Below are positions 1 through 8,970 of a stretch of 8,970 bases of DNA, piece after piece. The position numbers were made by a program, and so were the translations under genes. Every line of letters begins with the position of its first letter. Position 1 is the stretch's first letter. Below the pieces are notes generated by a model. That model had not been told where the DNA came from and ran no database searches. It saw only the letters and a list, made by a program, of their open reading frames with translations. The DNA is taken from contig JAGUYV010000422.1 of assembly GCA_020061125.1 (NCBI GenBank), positions 1-8,970 on the forward strand, written 5' to 3'. The DNA comes from a bacterium (lineage in GTDB: Bacteria; UBP15; UBA6099; DSWB01).

Positions 1-443
1 CGGGCATGGCCTATGCCGCGCTCATGAGCGGCGTCACATTGGCCAACGCGGGCCTGGGCGTGGTGCATGGCGTGGCCGGTCCCCTGGGCGGCATGTTCCC
101 TGTTCCCCACGGCGCTGCGTGCGGCACGCTTCTGGCCGCGGCCACGGCCGCCACCATCACAAAAATCCAGAACCGGCACGGCAGCGATCACCCGGCGCTG
201 GAAAAATACGCGGCCGTTGGCGCCATGCTGCGCCGCCGCGAGGCCAAAAATACGCCCGCGGGCTGCGAAATGCTGCTCCAAACACTAAACGAATGGACCA
301 TGCGTCTGGACATGCCGGGCCTGCTTCAGTTCGGCGTCGCCGAATCCGATCTTGACGCCGTCGCCGCGGCGTCGGACAGCAAATGCAATCCCGAGCCGCT
401 CACCAGGCGCGAGATTGTTGACATCCTGCGCCAGCGCCTGTGA
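1..443 (+). CDS. Iron-containing alcohol dehydrogenase, C-terminal part (5' end outside window)
   Basis: This is the C-terminal ~146 residues of a group III (Fe-dependent) alcohol dehydrogenase, a cytoplasmic NAD(P)-dependent oxidoreductase of alcohols and aldehydes. The frame is open to the window edge, so the ATG at position 6 is almost certainly internal. Full-length members are about 380 residues. The diagnostic segment GLGVVHGVAGPLGG...PVPHG carries two of the family's metal-ligand histidines, at codons 66-68 and 108-110. The family usually has a second conserved His four residues after the first (HxxxHPLG). Here that position is Gly (codon 78-80), as I recall for some subfamilies. The tail, ending in LTRREIVDILRQRL, matches the usual family C-terminus. 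The substrate cannot be told from this fragment. The family call is secure; the subfamily is inferred. Confidence 0.9.
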   Translation, partial: GMAYAALMSGVTLANAGLGVVHGVAGPLGGMFPVPHGAACGTLLAAATAATITKIQNRHGSDHPALEKYAAVGAMLRRREAKNTPAGCEMLLQTLNEWTMRLDMPGLLQFGVAESDLDAVAAASDSKCNPEPLTRREIVDILRQRL

Positions 444-470
444 TCCGCGCGCGGCGCACGGCAGTCAATC

Positions 471-499
471 TGGTCATTTCCCCTCAAACGGGCTAAGAT
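471..499 (+). promoter_or_regulatory. Possible sigma-70-like promoter upstream of proS
   Basis: In the 107-bp gap before proS, TGGTCA (471-476) and TAAGAT (494-499) are separated by 17 bp. Each matches 4 of 6 consensus bases. The sequence from about 480 to 540 is clearly AT-richer than the flanking genes, which favours a regulatory gap. The match is weak, and read-through from the upstream dehydrogenase gene is equally possible, since no terminator is visible between them. Confidence 0.22.
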
Positions 500-550
500 T
501 ACAAAGTTGTTGTTTTGCATTTTTTGCGTTTGAAAAGGAGCGCTTGAACC

Positions 551-2266
551 ATGAGAATGTCGCGGTTTTTCTTGAGAACCCTGCGCAATGTGGGTGAGGA
601 AATCGAGTCCGTGAGCCATCAGTTGTGCCTGCGGGCCGGGCTGATCCAGATGGTGTCCTCGGGGCACTACAATTTCCTGCCCCTGGGCCTGCGTGTGCTG
701 CGCAAGGCCGAGAACATCGTGCGCCAGGAAATGGACGCCATCGGCAGCCAGGAAACCGTGATGGTGCAGATGATGAACAAGGAACTGCTCGAGGAGAGCG
801 GGCGCTGGGACGCGTTCGGCCCGGTGCTGTTCAAGCTGCGCAACCGCAACGGCCACGAGCTTTGCCTGGGGCCGACCCACGAGGAGCCGGTCACATTCAT
901 GGCGCGCGCCTTTGTGCAGTCGTACAAGGACCTGCCCGTGATTCTGTACCAGATCGCGAACAAGATGCGCGACGAACCGCGCGCCCGCGGCGGTCTGCTG
1001 CGCGCGCGCGAATTTGTGATGAAGGACGCCTACAGCTTCGAGGCGGACGAGCAATCCCTGGACAACACTTACAACGCCATGCGCGAGGCGTATTTCAAAA
1101 TCTTCGCGCGCTGCGGCATCAAGACCATGATCATCGAGGCCGACACCGGCGCCATGGGCGGCAAAAGCTCCAACGAATTCATGGTGGTCTCGGACATCGG
1201 CGAGGACAACATTATCATCTGCGACTCGTGCAACAAGGCCATGAACCAGGAAATGGCGCCCTTCGACAAAACCTTCAATGTCTATTCGGAAACCTCGGAA
1301 GCGGCCCCGGAAAAGGTGCACACCCCGGACATCAAAACCATCGGGGATCTGGCCGCGTTTCTGAAAGTCCGGCCCGAACAGTGCCTCAAGCATGTTATGT
1401 ACAACGCCGATGGCGCGCTGGTCATCGCCATCGTGAGGGGCGACCTCGAGGTGAACGATGTCAAACTCACCAACAGGATTAAATGCACGGACCTGGATTT
1501 CGCGGCCGCCGAAGACCTGGCCGCCGCGGGCATCGCCGCGGGCTTCGCCAGCCCCATCGGCGTGAGCGAGAGCATCCGCGTGATCTTGGACGACTCCGTG
1601 ATTATGGGAAACGCCTATGTGTGCGGCGCCAATGAAAAAGATTATCACATGAAGAACATCGTGCCAGGGCGGGATTTCCCCAAGCATGTGGAGATCGCGG
1701 ACATCGCCATGGCTGCGGCCGGGCACAAGTGCGCCAAATGCGATGACCTGCTGCGCGTGGAAAAGGGCATCGAGCTGGGCCACATCTTCAAACTGGGCAC
1801 GCGCTACTCCGTGGCCATGAACGCGAATTTCACGGACGAAGACGGCCGCGAGAAACCCATGATCATGGGCTGCTACGGCATCGGCGTCACGCGCCTCATC
1901 GCCGCGGCCATCGAGCAGCACCACGACGACAACGGCATCATATGGCCCAAACAGATCGCGCCATTCCAGGTGCATGTGATCCAGGTTGGCAAAAAGAACC
2001 CGGAACTGGACGCTGCCGCAGATGCGCTCTATCAGGAAATGCTCGACGCGGGCTTCGAAACCCTCTACGACGACCGGAACGAATCCCCGGGCGTGAAATT
2101 CAATGACGCGGATCTGATCGGCATCCCCGTGCGCCTGGTGGTCAGCGCAAGAACCATGAAGGACAATGTGGTGGAAATGAAGCTGCGCGGTGAAGCGGAT
2201 CGCTCCACGCCGCCGCGCGAGGGCATCGCGAACACAGTGCGCGCGGCTCTGGACGCTCTTGCTTAG
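551..2266 (+). CDS. proS: Prolyl-tRNA synthetase (bacterial type, with editing domain)
   Basis: Class II aminoacyl-tRNA synthetase that charges tRNA-Pro with proline in the cytoplasm. Its 571 residues match the usual bacterial ProRS length. Class II motif 1 lies at ~29-60 (AGLIQMVSSGHY onward). The LGPTHEE proline/ATP-site segment is at 106-112, motif 2 at ~139-163 (MRDEPRA...REFVMKDAYSF) and motif 3 at 438-450 (IMGCYGIGVTRLI). The editing insertion domain spans about 224-410. K280 (in CLKHVM) aligns with the Lys that governs Ala-tRNA-Pro editing in E. coli, and the VILDD segment at 344-348 keeps the conserved Asp. C224/C227 and C394/C397 bracket the insertion and resemble a zinc site. The C-terminal anticodon-binding domain is at ~470-571. 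The ATG at 551 follows AAAGGAG (534-540) by 10 nt and gives the normal N-terminus (MRxSRFFLRTLR), so the start is well supported. Confidence 0.98.
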   Translation: MRMSRFFLRTLRNVGEEIESVSHQLCLRAGLIQMVSSGHYNFLPLGLRVLRKAENIVRQEMDAIGSQETVMVQMMNKELLEESGRWDAFGPVLFKLRNRNGHELCLGPTHEEPVTFMARAFVQSYKDLPVILYQIANKMRDEPRARGGLLRAREFVMKDAYSFEADEQSLDNTYNAMREAYFKIFARCGIKTMIIEADTGAMGGKSSNEFMVVSDIGEDNIIICDSCNKAMNQEMAPFDKTFNVYSETSEAAPEKVHTPDIKTIGDLAAFLKVRPEQCLKHVMYNADGALVIAIVRGDLEVNDVKLTNRIKCTDLDFAAAEDLAAAGIAAGFASPIGVSESIRVILDDSVIMGNAYVCGANEKDYHMKNIVPGRDFPKHVEIADIAMAAAGHKCAKCDDLLRVEKGIELGHIFKLGTRYSVAMNANFTDEDGREKPMIMGCYGIGVTRLIAAAIEQHHDDNGIIWPKQIAPFQVHVIQVGKKNPELDAAADALYQEMLDAGFETLYDDRNESPGVKFNDADLIGIPVRLVVSARTMKDNVVEMKLRGEADRSTPPREGIANTVRAALDALA

Positions 2267-2269
2267 CCC

Positions 2270-2300
2270 GCTCCGGAGCCTGTTCCCAGAAGCCGGAACA
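2270..2300 (+). terminator. Weak hairpins just after proS
   Basis: Just after the proS stop there is a perfect 10-bp palindrome GCTCCGGAGC (2270-2279). It is followed by a second inverted repeat, TGTTCC (2281-2286) and GGAACA (2295-2300), with an 8-nt loop. No T-run follows, so this is not a classical intrinsic terminator. It could act as a factor-assisted end or a 3' stabilising structure, or it could be chance. Confidence 0.25.
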
Positions 2301-2531
2301 CGACCGCGCAATATTTCCCGCACAATCGTTTTATACATAGCGTGTTTGTCATTGGTATTTTCAGGTAAGGCTTTCCCCTACAATACAGGTCTGTTAAAAT
2401 AAGAATAAGTAATTGTATTATCAGCGGTCATTACCGGCAGGCAGCCAGCGGAGGTTGCATTTTCACCGCCGGGTATGTAAACGGACAGTATTTCTTTAGA
2501 AAATCGGTATCTGGAAAGGACGGGGTGAATC
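2301..2531 (+). promoter_or_regulatory. AT-rich spacer: candidate promoter and 5' leader of the FecR/lipoprotein unit
   Basis: This non-coding spacer is visibly AT-richer than its neighbours, above all at 2325-2425. The best promoter-like pair I see is TTTTCA (2358-2363) and TACAAT (2379-2384), with matches of 4/6 and 5/6 but a short 15-bp spacer. TATTAT at 2416-2421 is an alternative -10. Downstream, two small hairpins could form in a leader RNA: CGGT/ACCG (2425-2428 with 2433-2436), and CGGaGGT/ACCgCCG (2449-2455 with 2465-2471). I could not match the leader to any known riboswitch. Purine-rich GGAAAGGA (2513-2520) and GGGGTGA (2522-2528) precede the ATG at 2532. That the pair is transcribed from here is an inference from this composition and the gene layout. 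Confidence 0.35.
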
Positions 2532-3377
2532 ATGAAAAGGAACATAGCGGTTGTCATGTTTGTGCTGCTGGCGTTCTGCGGCGCAGCCCTTGCCGCGCCC
2601 ATGAAAGTCACGGTCAGCAAAGTGACGGGCAAAGTGGAAGTGAGCGCGGGAGCGGGCTGGAAGACGCTCAAAAACGGAGATTCCGTGCCCGTGGGCGCGG
2701 ATGTGCGCACGGGCGCGGGCGCAAGCTGCATCCTCAAGTGGGCGGGCGGCAACGCGGTCAAGCTCGGCCCGCTCACCACCATGTCCGTGGACCAGGCCGA
2801 GAAATCGGTGTCCGGCGATGAAAACTCGCGCGTGAACCTCAAGGCCGGCTCGGCGCAGGCGCACGCCAAGAAGCTGTCAACCGGCAAATCCTCATTTGAA
2901 ATCAAAACCCCGACCGCCGTGGCCGGCGTGCGCGGCACGGATATCATCGCCGAGATCGCCGCGGGCAATGTATCGTTCGGCGTGTCCGACGGCCAGCTCG
3001 AAATCACGGCCGGTGACGAGGTCTTCGTGCTCGACGACGGGTTCCTGATCAATGTGGGCGCGGATGGCGTGTTCGAGGATCCCATCCCCATTCCCCAGGA
3101 CATCCAGCAGAAACTCGAACAGGAATTCGAGGCCATCAAGCAGGAAGCCGCAGTCCCGGATCCCGTGGAAGAAACGCCGGAAGAACCTTCCGGAGAGCAG
3201 CCGGGCGCGGACGAACCCTCGGACGAGATTGTCAATGTTATTGATACGGTCAATGAAACCATTGATGTGATTCTCGACAACACGGTTGTTGATGAAGTGA
3301 TAGACAAGGCCACGGGCACGGACTATGTGACCGGCGATGTGTCCGTAACCATCGAATTTGAAAGCCAGCCTTACTGA
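2532..3377 (+). CDS. Secreted FecR-domain protein
   Basis: 281 residues. Residues 1-21 are a Sec signal peptide (KR start, hydrophobic core, cleavage after ALA), so the mature protein is periplasmic or exported. The cysteine at 16 is not in a convincing lipobox. Residues ~24-180 form a FecR-type beta domain with the hallmark IKTPTAVAGVRGTDI at 124-138. An acidic Pro/Glu-rich linker follows (~181-232), then a Val/Asp/Ile-rich tail (~233-281). FecR was named for the periplasmic regulator of iron-citrate signalling, which has an N-terminal transmembrane segment and a sigma-factor partner. Neither is present here, so a regulatory role is not supported. Stand-alone exported FecR-domain proteins are common, and their function is mostly unknown. 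The gene sits 23 bp upstream of the lipoprotein gene and is probably co-transcribed with it, so the two products may interact at the envelope. Confidence 0.9.
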   Translation: MKRNIAVVMFVLLAFCGAALAAPMKVTVSKVTGKVEVSAGAGWKTLKNGDSVPVGADVRTGAGASCILKWAGGNAVKLGPLTTMSVDQAEKSVSGDENSRVNLKAGSAQAHAKKLSTGKSSFEIKTPTAVAGVRGTDIIAEIAAGNVSFGVSDGQLEITAGDEVFVLDDGFLINVGADGVFEDPIPIPQDIQQKLEQEFEAIKQEAAVPDPVEETPEEPSGEQPGADEPSDEIVNVIDTVNETIDVILDNTVVDEVIDKATGTDYVTGDVSVTIEFESQPY

Positions 3378-3400
3378 AAAATTGAGAAAAAGGTGAGATT

Positions 3401-6400
3401 ATGAAAACACGAAGATACACCACTCTCGCAGTAATGCTGGCTCTGCTGGCCGGCATGCCGCTGTTCATCGCCCAGTGCGGCGGGGGCGGCGGAAGCAGCG
3501 CGCCCTCGGCGCAGCAGCCCTCGGCCAACGGCATGGGCAGCGTGGCCGCGGCCGTGAGTTTTTCCGGCCGCATCAACGGCCGCGCCGTGGCCCAGGCAAG
3601 CACTTCGGTGACCGTCACCATCACCATTTCCGGTTACTACAAGGAGGACGGCTCGCAGTTCCCGCCGGTCTCCACAACCGTAACCGTGGATCCCGCGGCT
3701 GGCCCCGTGCAGGTGCAGGTTCTGCAGGTGCCCATCGGCGTAAACCACCTGCTCACAGCCACCGCGGACTGGGGCGGGGGCCGCGTGGAAACCATCAAGG
3801 TCATCATCCGCGAAGTCGAGGAGGGCCGGTCTGTAACAGCAACCGCCAATGCCCTCACAACAGTTGTCGCGGATACGGCTCTCTATTACGCCGAACAGAA
3901 CGGCCTCACCCTGGACGAAGTGGATTACGCGGAAATCGAGAAGATTTCAAGCGCGGTGCAGGCCCTGTACGAATCCGGCGTGCCGTACCATGAAATGCAG
4001 CCCGGCTCGGTTCTGGAATTCGCCGAAAATATGGACACCATCGCGGGCGTTTCCATCACCCCGGCGCAGGCCTCTGTGGTCGCGGGCCAGACATACCAGT
4101 TCACCATCGCGGTGCTGGACGCCAACGGGAATCCGGCCGCGGGCCTGTCCCCGGTTCTGTCGCTCGACCCGGGCACAATCGGAACCATATCCCCGGACGG
4201 CCTGTTCACGGCCGCACAGGCGGGTTCGGGCGTGCTCACCGCCACCTATGAAACCTTCAGCGCCACGGCTTCCATCACGGTGATAAGCACATGCGGAGCG
4301 GACGCGGACTGCGACGACGGCGACCCGCTCACCCTGGACGCCTGCTCCAATCCCGGCACCGCCCAGGCCGCCTGCACGCACACCGCCGTGGCCTGTTCCA
4401 CGGATACGGACTGCAACGACAACAACGCGCTCACCATTGATTCCTGTTCGAACGGCGGCACGGCCAGCGCCGCGTGCGTGAACACGGCCGTGGCCTGCAA
4501 CACGGACCTCGACTGCGGCGGCAGCGCACCGGTGTGCATCAGCGGCGGAACCGCCTCGGCCGCGTGCGTGGCCTGTTCCACGGACACGGACTGCGACGAC
4601 GGCGACCCGCTCACCCTGGACGCCTGCTCCAACGGCGGCACGGCCAGCGCATCGTGCGCCAACAGTTCCTACGCATGCAACACGGCCGCGGACTGCTCCG
4701 CGCCCGCTTACGCATGCATCAATGGCGGGTCCCAGACTTCGGCCTGCATCGGGTGCGGCACAGCATCTGACTGCCCCACGGAAACGCCCCTGTGCTCGGC
4801 GGGCGGAGATCCTGGTTCCTTCTGCTACGCCTGCGACACCGAAGCCGACTGCGACGACGGCGATGTGGACACCATTGACACATGCTTCGACGGCGGCACG
4901 GCACAGGCCATTTGCGCTCATTCCACCACAATTCCGTCCGCGGCCATCACTGCGGACCAGACCTGGAACAGGGCGGGCAGCCCGTATCTGGTCGAAGGCC
5001 AGATTCAGGTGGAAGAGGGCGTGACCCTCACCATTGAGCCGGGGACCATCATCGAGTTCGCATGCCCAGGCGCAGGCACGGATTTCTTTATGAACGGGTA
5101 TTCCGATTTTTCCGGCATCATGGTGCTCGGCACGCTTAACGCCATCGGCACACAGGATCAGCCCATCAGCATGGGCTGCGGAGCCGGCGGGCAGTTGCTG
5201 CCACGCAGCGCAGGCGCCGCAGGATCCGGCGCATGGGGCGGCATTATGTACTACGGCGTTTTGGCGGACGGCACGCTCCAATATGTCAACATGGACAGTG
5301 CGGCGTACGCCATCGGCCTTTCAGACACAATCAATCCCATTCCCATCTCCCACATCAACATCACAAATGCCGTGGACACAAACATGGGACAGCTTTCCTA
5401 TCATATTCAAGTGAAAACGGCAAAGGGCTGGACCAAGATCACCGAGGAGCACTACAAGCTGCGCTTTGACAGGAAGCTGGTGGATGTCTCCAGATATCTG
5501 CCCGACGCGGACGGGGAGTACAAGGTTCGCATCACGCAGACCGGCGGCAACGCGGCCCAGATTGACGCCGTGGAACTCATGTCCGGCGGGCGCGCGCTGC
5601 CCCCGGCGGCGTTCACGGACATGTCCGGCGCACCGGCGTATCTCTACAAAGTCAGCCGCGCGGACAACGATGTGATTGACGCACATGGCCGCACCTTCGA
5701 GATAGCTTTCAACCCGCCGCGGAACACGGCCGGGCCGCTTGAAATCGCACTCACGGCGCGCGAGGAAAGCGAAGACGCCCTGCGCTTCGCGCGGCCCTTC
5801 CACTTCCCGGACAACGGACTGCGCCTGGACCCGTCGAGCAAGCGCGTAAACACCTACACACTGGGCGCAAATCCGGGCGCGCTGGCCGTGGACGGCGAGC
5901 TGACGGCCGCGGACGCGCTGCCCGCGCCCCTGTTCATTCAGGGCGTACGGCCCGATACCGGCCATCCCGACGCCCCGGTTTACGGGTACATGAAAAACGA
6001 CTCGCGGTATCTGTACGCGGCCCTGGACTTCGTGTCCGACAACACCTTTGACGGCGATGCCGACTACGCGGCTCTGCTGGTGCGCGTGAACGGCGAATTC
6101 AAGCGCTTCCGCGTGTCCGTGCCGGAAACCACTTACGGGTCAGTGGGCTTCACTTACACTGATAAAGCCGGATATCAGCACAAGGTGTACGAATTCAAAA
6201 TTCCGCTGGAAGAGATCGGCAGTCCCGCTCCGGGCGAGGCCGTGGACACGGTGTTCGAAGCATACGGCACCTCCGCCATGTTCCAGGGCGCGGTCGTGGC
6301 TTACTACGCATCGTTCGTTGACATCAGCTTCGTGAATATCTCAATCAACCCCAGTTCCTACACCTACGCCATGAAGCTGCATTATCTCAACGGCACCGGG

Positions 6401-7219
6401 CCGCACAGCGTGAACAACATTTCCGTCACGGACGGGAATTACGCCATCTCCCTGTACGATGTCACGGATTTGACCATGTCCAACATTCAGGTCACGGGCA
6501 TCGTGGATTACGGCGCGCTGGAGCTTGACTCGGTATACAACTCCACATTGAGCGACATTTCTCTCACCAACAACTACGACGGTCTTTACATGTCTTATTG
6601 CGAGAATGTGGATATCACGAACCTGACCGCCCAGGCGAGCGACGATTCCGGCCTGTACATTGCGGATTCCTCTTTCATCACCTGCGATTACTGCACCGCA
6701 TCCAGCATGAACTACTCCAATGCCTACATCGAGTATTCAAGCGACATTACCATCACCAACAGCATTTTCAACGGCAACGATATGGGGTATACCTCTGGTC
6801 TTGAGATAGACTCGTCCACGGTCAGCGTGAGCGGAACGGACATGAGTTACAACCCGGATTACGGTCTCAAGGTTATGTATGACTCCGAGGTGACCATGAC
6901 CGGATGCCGAATCAGCAACAACTGCAACGGCGTGTACGCCTACTTTGTTTCTTACCCCTTCACGCTGAACGGTTCCAACATAGTGGACAATGTCTACAGC
7001 GGCGTATCGGAAGACATGAGCAGCGTCACGGAGTTGAACGGCGTGTATCTTGCCGGCAATGCAGGAGCTGCGCCCGGAGAAGCCGATTTGTCCACAACGG
7101 TTCCGTATTCGGAGTCTACCCCGCAGCAGTACCTGGGCGTGGCGTCCGTGTCCAACCCGCAGGCCAGCCCCATCGCGGGCCTGCCGGAAAACGCCGGAAC
7201 CCCGCCCGGTTGCTACTGA
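3401..7219 (+). CDS. Large mosaic surface lipoprotein: Ig-like domain, Cys-rich repeats and beta-helix
   Basis: 1272 residues; AAGGTGAG (3390-3397) lies just before the ATG. The N-terminus has a lipoprotein-type signal peptide with the lipid-attachment Cys probably at 26 (FIAQC). Gln at -1 is atypical, but the following poly-Gly/Ser stretch is typical of exported lipoproteins, and Gly at +2 fits outer-membrane sorting. Then come a beta-rich N-domain (~45-150), a helical segment (~150-205) and a bacterial Ig-like (Big_2-type) domain at ~216-296. Seven tandem 4-Cys repeats occupy 298-505. A right-handed parallel beta-helix starts at ~511 (QIQVEEGVTLTIEPGTIIEF), is interrupted at ~660-963 by an unrelated insert, and continues in 22-26-residue rungs to ~1220. 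A Pro/Ser-rich tail follows. No catalytic site is evident. I infer a surface binding, adhesion or glycan-recognition role. A polysaccharide lyase or hydrolase using the beta-helix fold cannot be excluded. The exact function is unknown. Confidence 0.88.
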   Translation: MKTRRYTTLAVMLALLAGMPLFIAQCGGGGGSSAPSAQQPSANGMGSVAAAVSFSGRINGRAVAQASTSVTVTITISGYYKEDGSQFPPVSTTVTVDPAAGPVQVQVLQVPIGVNHLLTATADWGGGRVETIKVIIREVEEGRSVTATANALTTVVADTALYYAEQNGLTLDEVDYAEIEKISSAVQALYESGVPYHEMQPGSVLEFAENMDTIAGVSITPAQASVVAGQTYQFTIAVLDANGNPAAGLSPVLSLDPGTIGTISPDGLFTAAQAGSGVLTATYETFSATASITVISTCGADADCDDGDPLTLDACSNPGTAQAACTHTAVACSTDTDCNDNNALTIDSCSNGGTASAACVNTAVACNTDLDCGGSAPVCISGGTASAACVACSTDTDCDDGDPLTLDACSNGGTASASCANSSYACNTAADCSAPAYACINGGSQTSACIGCGTASDCPTETPLCSAGGDPGSFCYACDTEADCDDGDVDTIDTCFDGGTAQAICAHSTTIPSAAITADQTWNRAGSPYLVEGQIQVEEGVTLTIEPGTIIEFACPGAGTDFFMNGYSDFSGIMVLGTLNAIGTQDQPISMGCGAGGQLLPRSAGAAGSGAWGGIMYYGVLADGTLQYVNMDSAAYAIGLSDTINPIPISHINITNAVDTNMGQLSYHIQVKTAKGWTKITEEHYKLRFDRKLVDVSRYLPDADGEYKVRITQTGGNAAQIDAVELMSGGRALPPAAFTDMSGAPAYLYKVSRADNDVIDAHGRTFEIAFNPPRNTAGPLEIALTAREESEDALRFARPFHFPDNGLRLDPSSKRVNTYTLGANPGALAVDGELTAADALPAPLFIQGVRPDTGHPDAPVYGYMKNDSRYLYAALDFVSDNTFDGDADYAALLVRVNGEFKRFRVSVPETTYGSVGFTYTDKAGYQHKVYEFKIPLEEIGSPAPGEAVDTVFEAYGTSAMFQGAVVAYYASFVDISFVNISINPSSYTYAMKLHYLNGTGPHSVNNISVTDGNYAISLYDVTDLTMSNIQVTGIVDYGALELDSVYNSTLSDISLTNNYDGLYMSYCENVDITNLTAQASDDSGLYIADSSFITCDYCTASSMNYSNAYIEYSSDITITNSIFNGNDMGYTSGLEIDSSTVSVSGTDMSYNPDYGLKVMYDSEVTMTGCRISNNCNGVYAYFVSYPFTLNGSNIVDNVYSGVSEDMSSVTELNGVYLAGNAGAAPGEADLSTTVPYSESTPQQYLGVASVSNPQASPIAGLPENAGTPPGCY
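4292..4915 (+). repeat. Seven tandem 4-Cys repeats within the lipoprotein gene
   Basis: Protein residues 298-505 hold seven units with strict cysteine spacing. The long form is C-x5-C-x10-C-x9-C (units 1, 2, 4, 7 starting at residues 298, 332, 392, 478). The short form is C-x5-C-x6-C-x9-C (units 3, 5, 6 starting at 366, 426, 452). This gives 28 cysteines, presumably two disulfides per unit. The second Cys is usually preceded by Asp. The long units mostly carry acidic DDGD just after it, which could bind calcium. At DNA level, a 46-nt stretch in unit 1 (4305-4350) recurs without change in unit 4 (4587-4632). The 282-bp offset equals units 1-3, which indicates recent block duplication or gene conversion. 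Disulfides imply an extracytoplasmic location. Confidence 0.9.
5378..6289 (+). other. Domain block inserted into the beta-helix of the lipoprotein
   Basis: The beta-helix rungs run up to ...HINITNAVD (residue ~659) and resume at ...AVVAYYASFVDISFVNISI (from ~964). The ~300 residues between have no rung pattern. They read as three modules: ~664-730, a beta-sandwich-like piece including GEYKVRITQTGGNAAQIDAVE; ~731-825, Pro- and charge-rich with alternating beta segments; and ~828-955, a CBM9/DOMON-like piece. The last has VDG at 830-832, then RYLYAALDF and FEFKIPLEEIG-like elements, here YEFKIPLEEIG. The reading frame is kept throughout. The boundaries are estimated from the loss and return of the rung pattern and may be off by about 10 residues. 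The module assignments are by pattern only. Confidence 0.6.
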
Positions 7220-7269
7220 ACCGGCAAGGAGTTCCAGGCGGCAGGCACAAGAAACATCCCGCAAACACA

Positions 7270-7299
7270 AAACGGCGCCGGAGCAATCCGGCGCCGTTT
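7270..7299. terminator. Bidirectional intrinsic terminator between converging genes
   Basis: A perfect 12-bp inverted repeat, AAACGGCGCCGG (7270-7281) and CCGGCGCCGTTT (7288-7299), encloses the 6-nt loop AGCAAT. It lies 50 bp after the lipoprotein stop and 39 bp beyond the secretin stop on the other strand. Read on the minus strand, the stem is followed by TTTTGTGTTT, a good U-tract for the secretin transcript. On the plus strand it is followed by TTTCCTTT, which is less ideal. Position, stem strength and flanking T-runs all support a shared terminator. Confidence 0.88.
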
Positions 7300-7338
7300 C
7301 CTTTGGCGTGATTGATTCGTGCGCTGTGAGCGTTGTGA

Positions 7339-8970
7339 TTATTCCCCGGCCGCGTCCCGGGTCTGCTGCTGTTCGAGCATTTTGTGCAGTTTTTCGTTCT
7401 CGTGCAGCAGGTCCTGCATGCGCATTTTGTGCTTTTCGGTAAGGTCGTCAATTTCCTGCTGGCTTGAAACCACATGCGGGGTGATGAAAACCAGGAGCTC
7501 TGTTTTCTCGCCCACGGTGCGTTTGTTGCGGAAGATTTTGCCGATCACGGGGATGTCGCCGAGGAAAGGCACGCTGTTGCGGGTGATGGTTTCGTCGTCG
7601 CGCATGAGGCCGCCGAGCACGATGGTCTGTCCGTCCCTCACGGTCACGCTGGCGTCGGCCTGGCGCTGGATGATGATGAACGCATCGAAAAGCGTCTGCG
7701 CGCCCAGTTTCTTGATTTCCTGGTGGATGTCCAGGTTCACGAACCGCTGGTCGTTGATGTGCGGGGTCACGGTGAGCTTGATGCCCACATCCCGGTATTC
7801 GTAAACGAAATCCTTGGTGTCGCCCGTGGAACGCCGGGTTTCCTTGAGGTACGGCACTTCGGAGCCTACGGATATCTGCGCCTCGGTGTTGTCCGTGGTC
7901 ATGATCATGGGCGCGCTCAAGATATTGATGCGCTCCTGATTCTGAAACAGAAACCCGAGCAGTTCGCTTGCGCCGCCGTTTTTGAGGATTGCGCCCTTGA
8001 GGCCGAAGTCCTCGCTGGCCAGGTTCCAGTCCGTGGACACGGAGCCGGTCATGGCCTCGCCGCTCACGGTGCGCTCCTTGAGCAGGGTCCATTCCATGCC
8101 CATCTTGGTGTCCGAGTCCAGTGTGGCCTCGATGATGAGCACCTCGATGAGCACCTGCGAGAGCATGCCGTCGAGGCTCTGCACCAGGCTCTCGATGGCC
8201 GGGAAATTCGAAGGGTAGGTGGCCACGATGAGGGAGTTGGAGCGTTCGTCGGCGAGCACGGTGAGTTCGCCGGTTATTTCGAGCGCGCCGGGGGCCGGGG
8301 CGCTCGAGGGCGCGGCCGGCGCGGCGGTGTTGTTCTCGCCCGCGCCGCCCGAGCTTTTGGGCAGCTTGCTGATCAGATTGGCCAGGTCCGCGGCCTTGGC
8401 GTAATCCAGGCTGAAGACCTTGATCTGCATGCGCCGGGGCGGTTCCCGGTCCAGAAAGTCAATGATGGACAGGATGCGCTTCACATTGGCCGAAGTGTCG
8501 GTGATGATGATGGTGTTGGATTCCTCGTTGTGGAGCAGTTCGCCGTGTTCGCTGACCAGGGGTTTGAGGTCCGCGCGCACCTTGGCCGCGTCCACCTGCG
8601 AAATGGGCACGACCTGGGTGATGATGGACTCGGTTTCGGGCAGTGCGGCGAAGTCGGCGCCGATGCGCGTGGGCACATTGGTCTGTTTTGCGTGCGCCAG
8701 GGGGATGATGCGGATGACATCATTGGAGCGGACCATGGTGAAGCCCTTGGCGCGCAGGGCGCTGTTGAGGGTTTCGAGCGCGTCGGCCACGGGCAGCAGG
8801 GTGTCGGACGCGATGGTCACGGTTCCGTTCACGCTGCTGTCCACGATGATGGTTGCGCCGGTCACATCCTGGATGAATTTGATGATGTGGCGGATGTCCG
8901 CGTCCTGGAAATTCATGCGGATGGTCTGGCCGCGCGGGGGCGCGGGCTGCGCGGCCGCGGGACAGCAGGC
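7339..8970 (-). CDS. gspD: GspD-like type II secretion secretin (5' end outside window)
   Basis: This encodes an outer-membrane secretin, the gated multimeric channel of type II secretion. The frame stays open for 18 codons above the ATG at 8916 to the window edge (ending PAPPRGQTIR before MNFQDADI), so the true start and signal peptide lie outside. Numbering from that internal Met, residues 1-72 are the N0 domain (MNFQDADIRHIIKFIQDVTG, IIVDSSVNGTVTI). Residues 97-157 are N1-like, with EESNTIIITD. Residues 163-249 are N3-like (VFSLDYAKAADLANLISKL, ADERSNSLIVA), split by an Ala/Pro/Ser-rich loop at 187-212. The secretin core is 253-483, with VPFLGDIPVIGKIF (449-462) and ELLVFITPHVV as the family's closing signature. 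The tail 484-525 is strongly charged and predicted coiled coil. Canonical GspD has four N-domains; one module seems to be missing. A type IV pilus (PilQ) secretin is less likely, because no AMIN domain is visible and the N0 wording is GspD-like. Confidence 0.9.
   Translation of the reverse strand, partial: ACCPAAAQPAPPRGQTIRMNFQDADIRHIIKFIQDVTGATIIVDSSVNGTVTIASDTLLPVADALETLNSALRAKGFTMVRSNDVIRIIPLAHAKQTNVPTRIGADFAALPETESIITQVVPISQVDAAKVRADLKPLVSEHGELLHNEESNTIIITDTSANVKRILSIIDFLDREPPRRMQIKVFSLDYAKAADLANLISKLPKSSGGAGENNTAAPAAPSSAPAPGALEITGELTVLADERSNSLIVATYPSNFPAIESLVQSLDGMLSQVLIEVLIIEATLDSDTKMGMEWTLLKERTVSGEAMTGSVSTDWNLASEDFGLKGAILKNGGASELLGFLFQNQERINILSAPMIMTTDNTEAQISVGSEVPYLKETRRSTGDTKDFVYEYRDVGIKLTVTPHINDQRFVNLDIHQEIKKLGAQTLFDAFIIIQRQADASVTVRDGQTIVLGGLMRDDETITRNSVPFLGDIPVIGKIFRNKRTVGEKTELLVFITPHVVSSQQEIDDLTEKHKMRMQDLLHENEKLHKMLEQQQTRDAAGE

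Follow-up and report, generated by a model that had tools for sequence, protein, structure and literature searches.

The genome analysed here has been almost emptied of the tetranucleotide ACGT and of four other palindromes, CTNAG, RTCGAY, CAGCTG and GRGCYC, and sites were replaced by codon choices that match selection. We consider it very probable that the lineage avoids Type II restriction sites and long carried orthodox restriction-modification (R-M) systems for these five sequences. We infer that a restriction enzyme exerted this selection; it was not found in the assembly.

ACGT in the window and across the genome

The window, the whole stretch of DNA analysed (8,970 bp, contig C111, positions 1 to 8970), holds no ACGT on either strand, the motif being palindromic. 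The expected number is 27.1 under a maximal-order Markov model, 31.0 ± 5.7 in 200 dinucleotide shuffles and 26.1, with a lowest value of 15, in 2,000 synonymous-codon shuffles that kept codon use. The first description of this DNA, a sequence-only reading, had reported zero ACGT for about 30 expected and about 17 copies of GTAC, and both statements hold, GTAC being present 17 times. It had also remarked on the absence of CTAG; the count is indeed 0 but means little, because only about 2 are expected.

The genes of the window are listed in Table 1. Where an Asn, Asp, His or Tyr codon (NAY) precedes a Val codon (GTN), the sequence-only reading had traced 27 junctions and found NAT at every one; by full count it is 28 of 28 in proS, the FecR gene, the lipoprotein gene and the secretin gene. 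NAC dominates elsewhere, as was also claimed, with 334 NAC and 97 NAT before other codons in those four genes and the alcohol dehydrogenase fragment. The lipoprotein-like protein itself has Cys-rich repeats of the type CSTDTDCDDGDPLTLDACSNGGTA followed by a beta-helix region, which a different domain appears to break up.

Table 1. Positions of the window's genes, of the 16S rRNA gene and of the DNA methylases in the assembly
Feature	Contig	Position	Strand	Remarks
Alcohol dehydrogenase gene, iron-containing, 3′ part	C111	3–443	+	Pfam PF25137; NAY-GTN junctions: none
proS (prolyl-tRNA synthetase)	C111	551–2266	+	Pfam PF00587, PF04073, PF03129; NAT-GTN at 8/8 NAY-GTN junctions
FecR-domain protein gene	C111	2532–3377	+	Pfam PF04773; NAT-GTN at 7/7 NAY-GTN junctions
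Large lipoprotein-like beta-helix protein gene	C111	3401–7219	+	Pfam PF13229, PF05048; NAT-GTN at 7/7 NAY-GTN junctions
Secretin (GspD-like) gene, 5′ end outside window	C111	7339–8970	-	Pfam PF00263, PF03958, PF21305; NAT-GTN at 6/6 NAY-GTN junctions
16S rRNA gene	C30	6724–8298		
m5C methylase	C128			Only one found in assembly; part of the cassette in the next row
m5C methylase, DUF4928 protein and Vsr endonuclease in a row (cassette)	C128	417–2871	+	Compact; locus L045
PF01555 methylase	C172	1147–2124	-	No nuclease noticed adjoining; locus L042
PF01555 methylase	C411			No nuclease noticed adjoining
PF01555 methylase	C259			Phage-like contig; locus L046
D12 methylase	C38			Chromosomal contig
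D12 methylase	C78			Phage-like contig; locus L165

The source genome (G000) comprises 4.12 Mb in 513 contigs and is 79% complete. Whole-genome counts were made with 6-base patterns, and ACGT was counted on about 0.55 Mb of contigs. GACGTC occurs 28 times genome-wide, against 1,168 for the reversed control CTGCAG. ACGT was found 56 times in 543 kb of contigs for 1,261 expected, a ratio of 0.04 that is an upper estimate because the sample takes in contigs picked for holding GACGTC. A 182-kb sample chosen irrespective of ACGT content has 18 sites where about 415 would be expected, and a single phage-like contig holds half of the 18; there are long contigs with 0 to 3 ACGT where about 35 to 50 are expected. 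None of the three codon phases is spared, nor is ORF-free DNA (2 found, 11 expected). All 16 flanking contexts of ACGT are depleted, which makes the 4-mer itself the target; the least depleted, GACGTC, is raised by the choice of contigs. About 95% or more of ACGT sites have thus been lost from this bacterium. The proposal that avoidance acts at the genome level and through codon choice is borne out, ACGT being equally rare in the remaining genome and nowhere near its expected frequency.

GACGTC numbers 628 to 1,235 in each of six genomes of the same order, and ACGT stands at 0.77 to 0.81 of expectation in three of these relatives. The deficit is genome-wide and specific to the lineage, and the wider clade does not share it.

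Other purged palindromes

Further motifs were sought among gapped palindromes and every 5-mer and 6-mer. Four are as depleted as ACGT in the 543 kb, with found/expected ratios of 0.06 for CTNAG, 0.06 for RTCGAY, 0.03 for CAGCTG and 0.07 for GRGCYC. They are scarce in the window too (found/expected: CTNAG 2/17, RTCGAY 0/7, CAGCTG 0/3, GRGCYC 1/10), where the sequence-only reading had missed them. Whole-genome counts concur (GTCGAC 11, CAGCTG 53, GAGCTC 66; control CTCGAG 896). All purged palindromes are of the type recognised by Type II enzymes; DdeI, PvuII and BanII recognise CTNAG, CAGCTG and GRGCYC, respectively.

Among same-order relatives, GTCGAC occurs 571 to 2,325 times in five of six and is low in the remaining one (G005). 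The sampled relatives show no shortage of ACGT or RTCGAY, and their CTNAG deficit is far milder than here. CAGCTG is low in every one sampled and GRGCYC in some, so avoidance of these two may be older within the order. CATATG and CGATCG show weaker deficits that are partly general, being found also among relatives and at 79 unrelated loci. Each relative has its own avoided palindromes, such as GGATCC (0.04) and CATATG (0.06) in G001, and two others (G002 and G006) have CAGCTG and GRGCYC among theirs; such separate sets are what turnover of R-M systems would be expected to produce.

Where ACGT remains

The densest residue of ACGT lies in the rRNA genes, with six sites in the 16S gene, three of which coincide with Escherichia coli sites, and two in 486 bp of the 3′ part of the 23S gene. 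The density there is 3.9 per kb, a normal level, versus 0.10 per kb elsewhere. Leftover sites of different motifs co-occur in 1-kb bins beyond chance, and on chromosomal contigs the two bins with the most sites are rRNA genes. Because the rRNA genes keep their sites, ACGT can exist on the chromosome; either methylation or loss of the nuclease would allow this. Two phage-like contigs also retain ACGT at 0.3 to 0.7 of expectation (C8, 9 of 28 expected; C259, 8 of 11). The first of these (L027) has none of the CTNAG (20), GRGCYC (10), RTCGAY (5) or CAGCTG (4) sites expected, and two phage-like contigs, C259 and C78, encode DNA methylases of their own.

Under restriction-site avoidance, the lineage would long have hosted an orthodox Type II R-M system targeting ACGT, the sequence recognised by MaeII and Hpy99XI, and further Type II systems would have targeted CTNAG, RTCGAY, CAGCTG and GRGCYC. 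Methylation would sometimes miss a site, the endonuclease would cut the chromosome there, and mutants free of the site would be favoured. Sites would be lost wherever codons or spacers permit and would stay where the sequence cannot change, as in rRNA, or where DNA has newly arrived, as in phage. Restriction was the first of three causes put forward in the sequence-only reading, and it is the best supported, given five purged palindromes and even synonymous replacement.

Search for the responsible enzyme

A check of the 79%-complete assembly for a methyltransferase or endonuclease of ACGT specificity identified neither. It yielded six DNA methylases (one m5C, three PF01555 and two D12; Table 1), for none of which ACGT specificity was shown, and no member of PF02384 or PF07669. 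The causal system has probably been lost or lies within the missing 21%. The methylase on C172 carries a DPPY motif, and its top solved-structure match is 8urk_A.

The cassette on C128 is the only complete-looking R-M cassette found in the assembly, and its DUF4928 protein is called a Type II restriction enzyme by PADLOC. The G+C content of the contig's first 3 kb is below that of the genome (0.495 versus 0.60), so the cassette was probably acquired recently. The same trio of DUF4928 protein, Vsr and m5C methylase has been reported in SGI1-related elements (PMC9035990); this co-occurrence was all that the DUF4928 literature offered, with no specificity. Loci with close homologs (at least 59% identity) contain 437 ACGT for 502 expected (0.87), and the trio was rejected as the ACGT enzyme on 79 homologous loci without ACGT loss, in which no other avoided motif is depleted past baseline either. 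Judged from these homologs, the C128 methylase is probably not ACGT-specific; the cassette is kept as a weakly possible source, since a system of recent acquisition leaves no footprint.

An unrelated genome, G019 (L178–L181; 1.7 Mb, 41% G+C), has 2 ACGT for 268 expected and no matching loss of other palindromes, so avoidance of similar depth is not unique to the window's genome. A search of it covering two methylase families, PF00145 and PF01555, returned none, so in this case no visible enzyme accompanies the ACGT loss. No methylase of these two families is common to all three of the ACGT-poor genomes G019, G028 and G047, through which the enzyme was also sought.

These results bear on two other readings. 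A different sequence-specific cause, such as a regulatory signal, a DNA-binding protein or a further modification system (one based on phosphorothioation, for instance) whose chance targets the chromosome has to be free of, would accommodate both the missing ACGT-specific R-M enzyme and the loss in G019 without common methylases. We regard it as unlikely, since five different Type II-like palindromes were purged together, the target is the bare 4-mer and the rRNA genes hold ACGT without apparent harm; a DNA-binding target, the option named in the sequence-only reading, leaves the equally deep purge of four unrelated palindromes unexplained. It is highly unlikely that ACGT was purged without a classical pair of methylase and endonuclease, by a nuclease or surveillance system, for instance, that takes certain palindromes for non-self when the host does not methylate them. 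This reading would also fit G019, with its near-absence of ACGT and no methylase of PF00145 or PF01555.

Codon choice and possible mutational loss

The sequence-only reading had also raised mutagenic modification, by which ACGT, methylated at C5, would deaminate to ATGT or ACAT faster than repair, with no selection. We assign this a very small probability as an explanation. Replacement of NAC-GTN by NAT-GTN is a C-to-T change, yet it is also the sole synonymous escape. Among 366 called genes, NAC makes up 29 of 1,160 NAY codons before GTN (2.5%) versus 4,950 of 6,361 before other G-codons (78%), so the NAT bias is not independent of the next codon. NAC use before GTN is also lower in relatives that have not lost ACGT (243 of 579, 42%, versus 1,963 of 2,483, 79%, before other G-codons), so context has a mild influence of its own, and ordinary context bias is a minor part of the shift.

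Other junctions separate the two causes. Thr ACG before T is down to 0.5%, as is Arg CGT after NNA. At Thr-T junctions the remaining codons ACA:ACC:ACT stand at 0.27:0.56:0.16, and ACA, at 0.273 of non-ACG codons, lies within the 0.20 to 0.30 of the Ser, Pro and Ala controls, which contradicts site loss through 5-methylcytosine deamination. Under deamination, an equilibrium model puts the ACA share at 0.50 to 0.58 for every transition bias tried; it is a simple, stationary model of one site, though the gap to the observed share is large. TGT and CAT codons after NNA show no clear rise. ACG-T sites have been replaced evenly across synonyms, in line with selection, and the Thr-T junctions speak strongly against deamination as the main driver. 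Deamination does have an m5C methylase to call on, at C128, and a precedent for exactly ACGT in Helicobacter pylori M.Hpy99XI (PMC10423294), but it leaves four other palindromes at equal depth unexplained. The C128 cassette, moreover, carries a Vsr-family endonuclease; known relatives of Vsr repair the T:G mismatches that arise by such deamination.

Asn/Asp/His/Tyr-Val dipeptides are somewhat rare (0.72 to 0.85 here versus 0.86 to 1.07 in relatives), which suggests, without proving, that some ACGT sites were removed at an amino-acid cost.

An artefact of assembly, composition-based binning or general codon-pair bias has a negligible chance: the genome is fragmented and incomplete, binning by composition could prefer ACGT-poor contigs and relatives share a milder NAT preference before GTN, but the near-empty long contigs exceed chance or binning, every synonymous shuffle of the window gives at least 15 ACGT, loss reaches all codon phases and ORF-free DNA, and leftover ACGT shows no pile-up at contig ends.

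Relation to known systems and significance

The ACGT purge is a known kind of phenomenon in an unusually deep case. Palindrome avoidance caused by orthodox Type II R-M systems has been described before (Gelfand and Koonin 1997, as cited in PMC4687349). Type II sites are avoided mainly for widespread, long-resident systems, and avoidance can persist as a trace after the system is lost (Rusinov et al. 2015, PMC4687349). The present case resembles those in involving several short palindromes together, genome-wide and in a lineage-specific way; it differs in that five palindromes are unusually deeply depleted (0.03 to 0.07) and the enzymes are inferred.

In H. pylori with M.Hpy99XI, ACGT is scarce in some populations, at about 53 per Mb in hpEastAsia, and changes are skewed to ATGT/ACAT, which the authors took as m5C deamination (PMC10423294). 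The same tetranucleotide is scarce here, mostly in the same codon phase, but the replacement codons match selection and not deamination. The MaeII R-M system of Methanococcus aeolicus targets A^CGT, with m5C modification (PMC10113651), so an enzyme of the required kind, specific for exactly ACGT, exists, although no MaeII homolog was assigned in this genome.

With five palindromes almost gone, this genome records its history of restriction very clearly, and unselected controls, the rRNA genes and phage-like contigs, lie inside one assembly. For ACGT it separates selection from methyl-cytosine mutation, where the opposite was reported in H. pylori. It also offers a way to predict past R-M specificities in an uncultured lineage and to flag DNA that arrived there recently.
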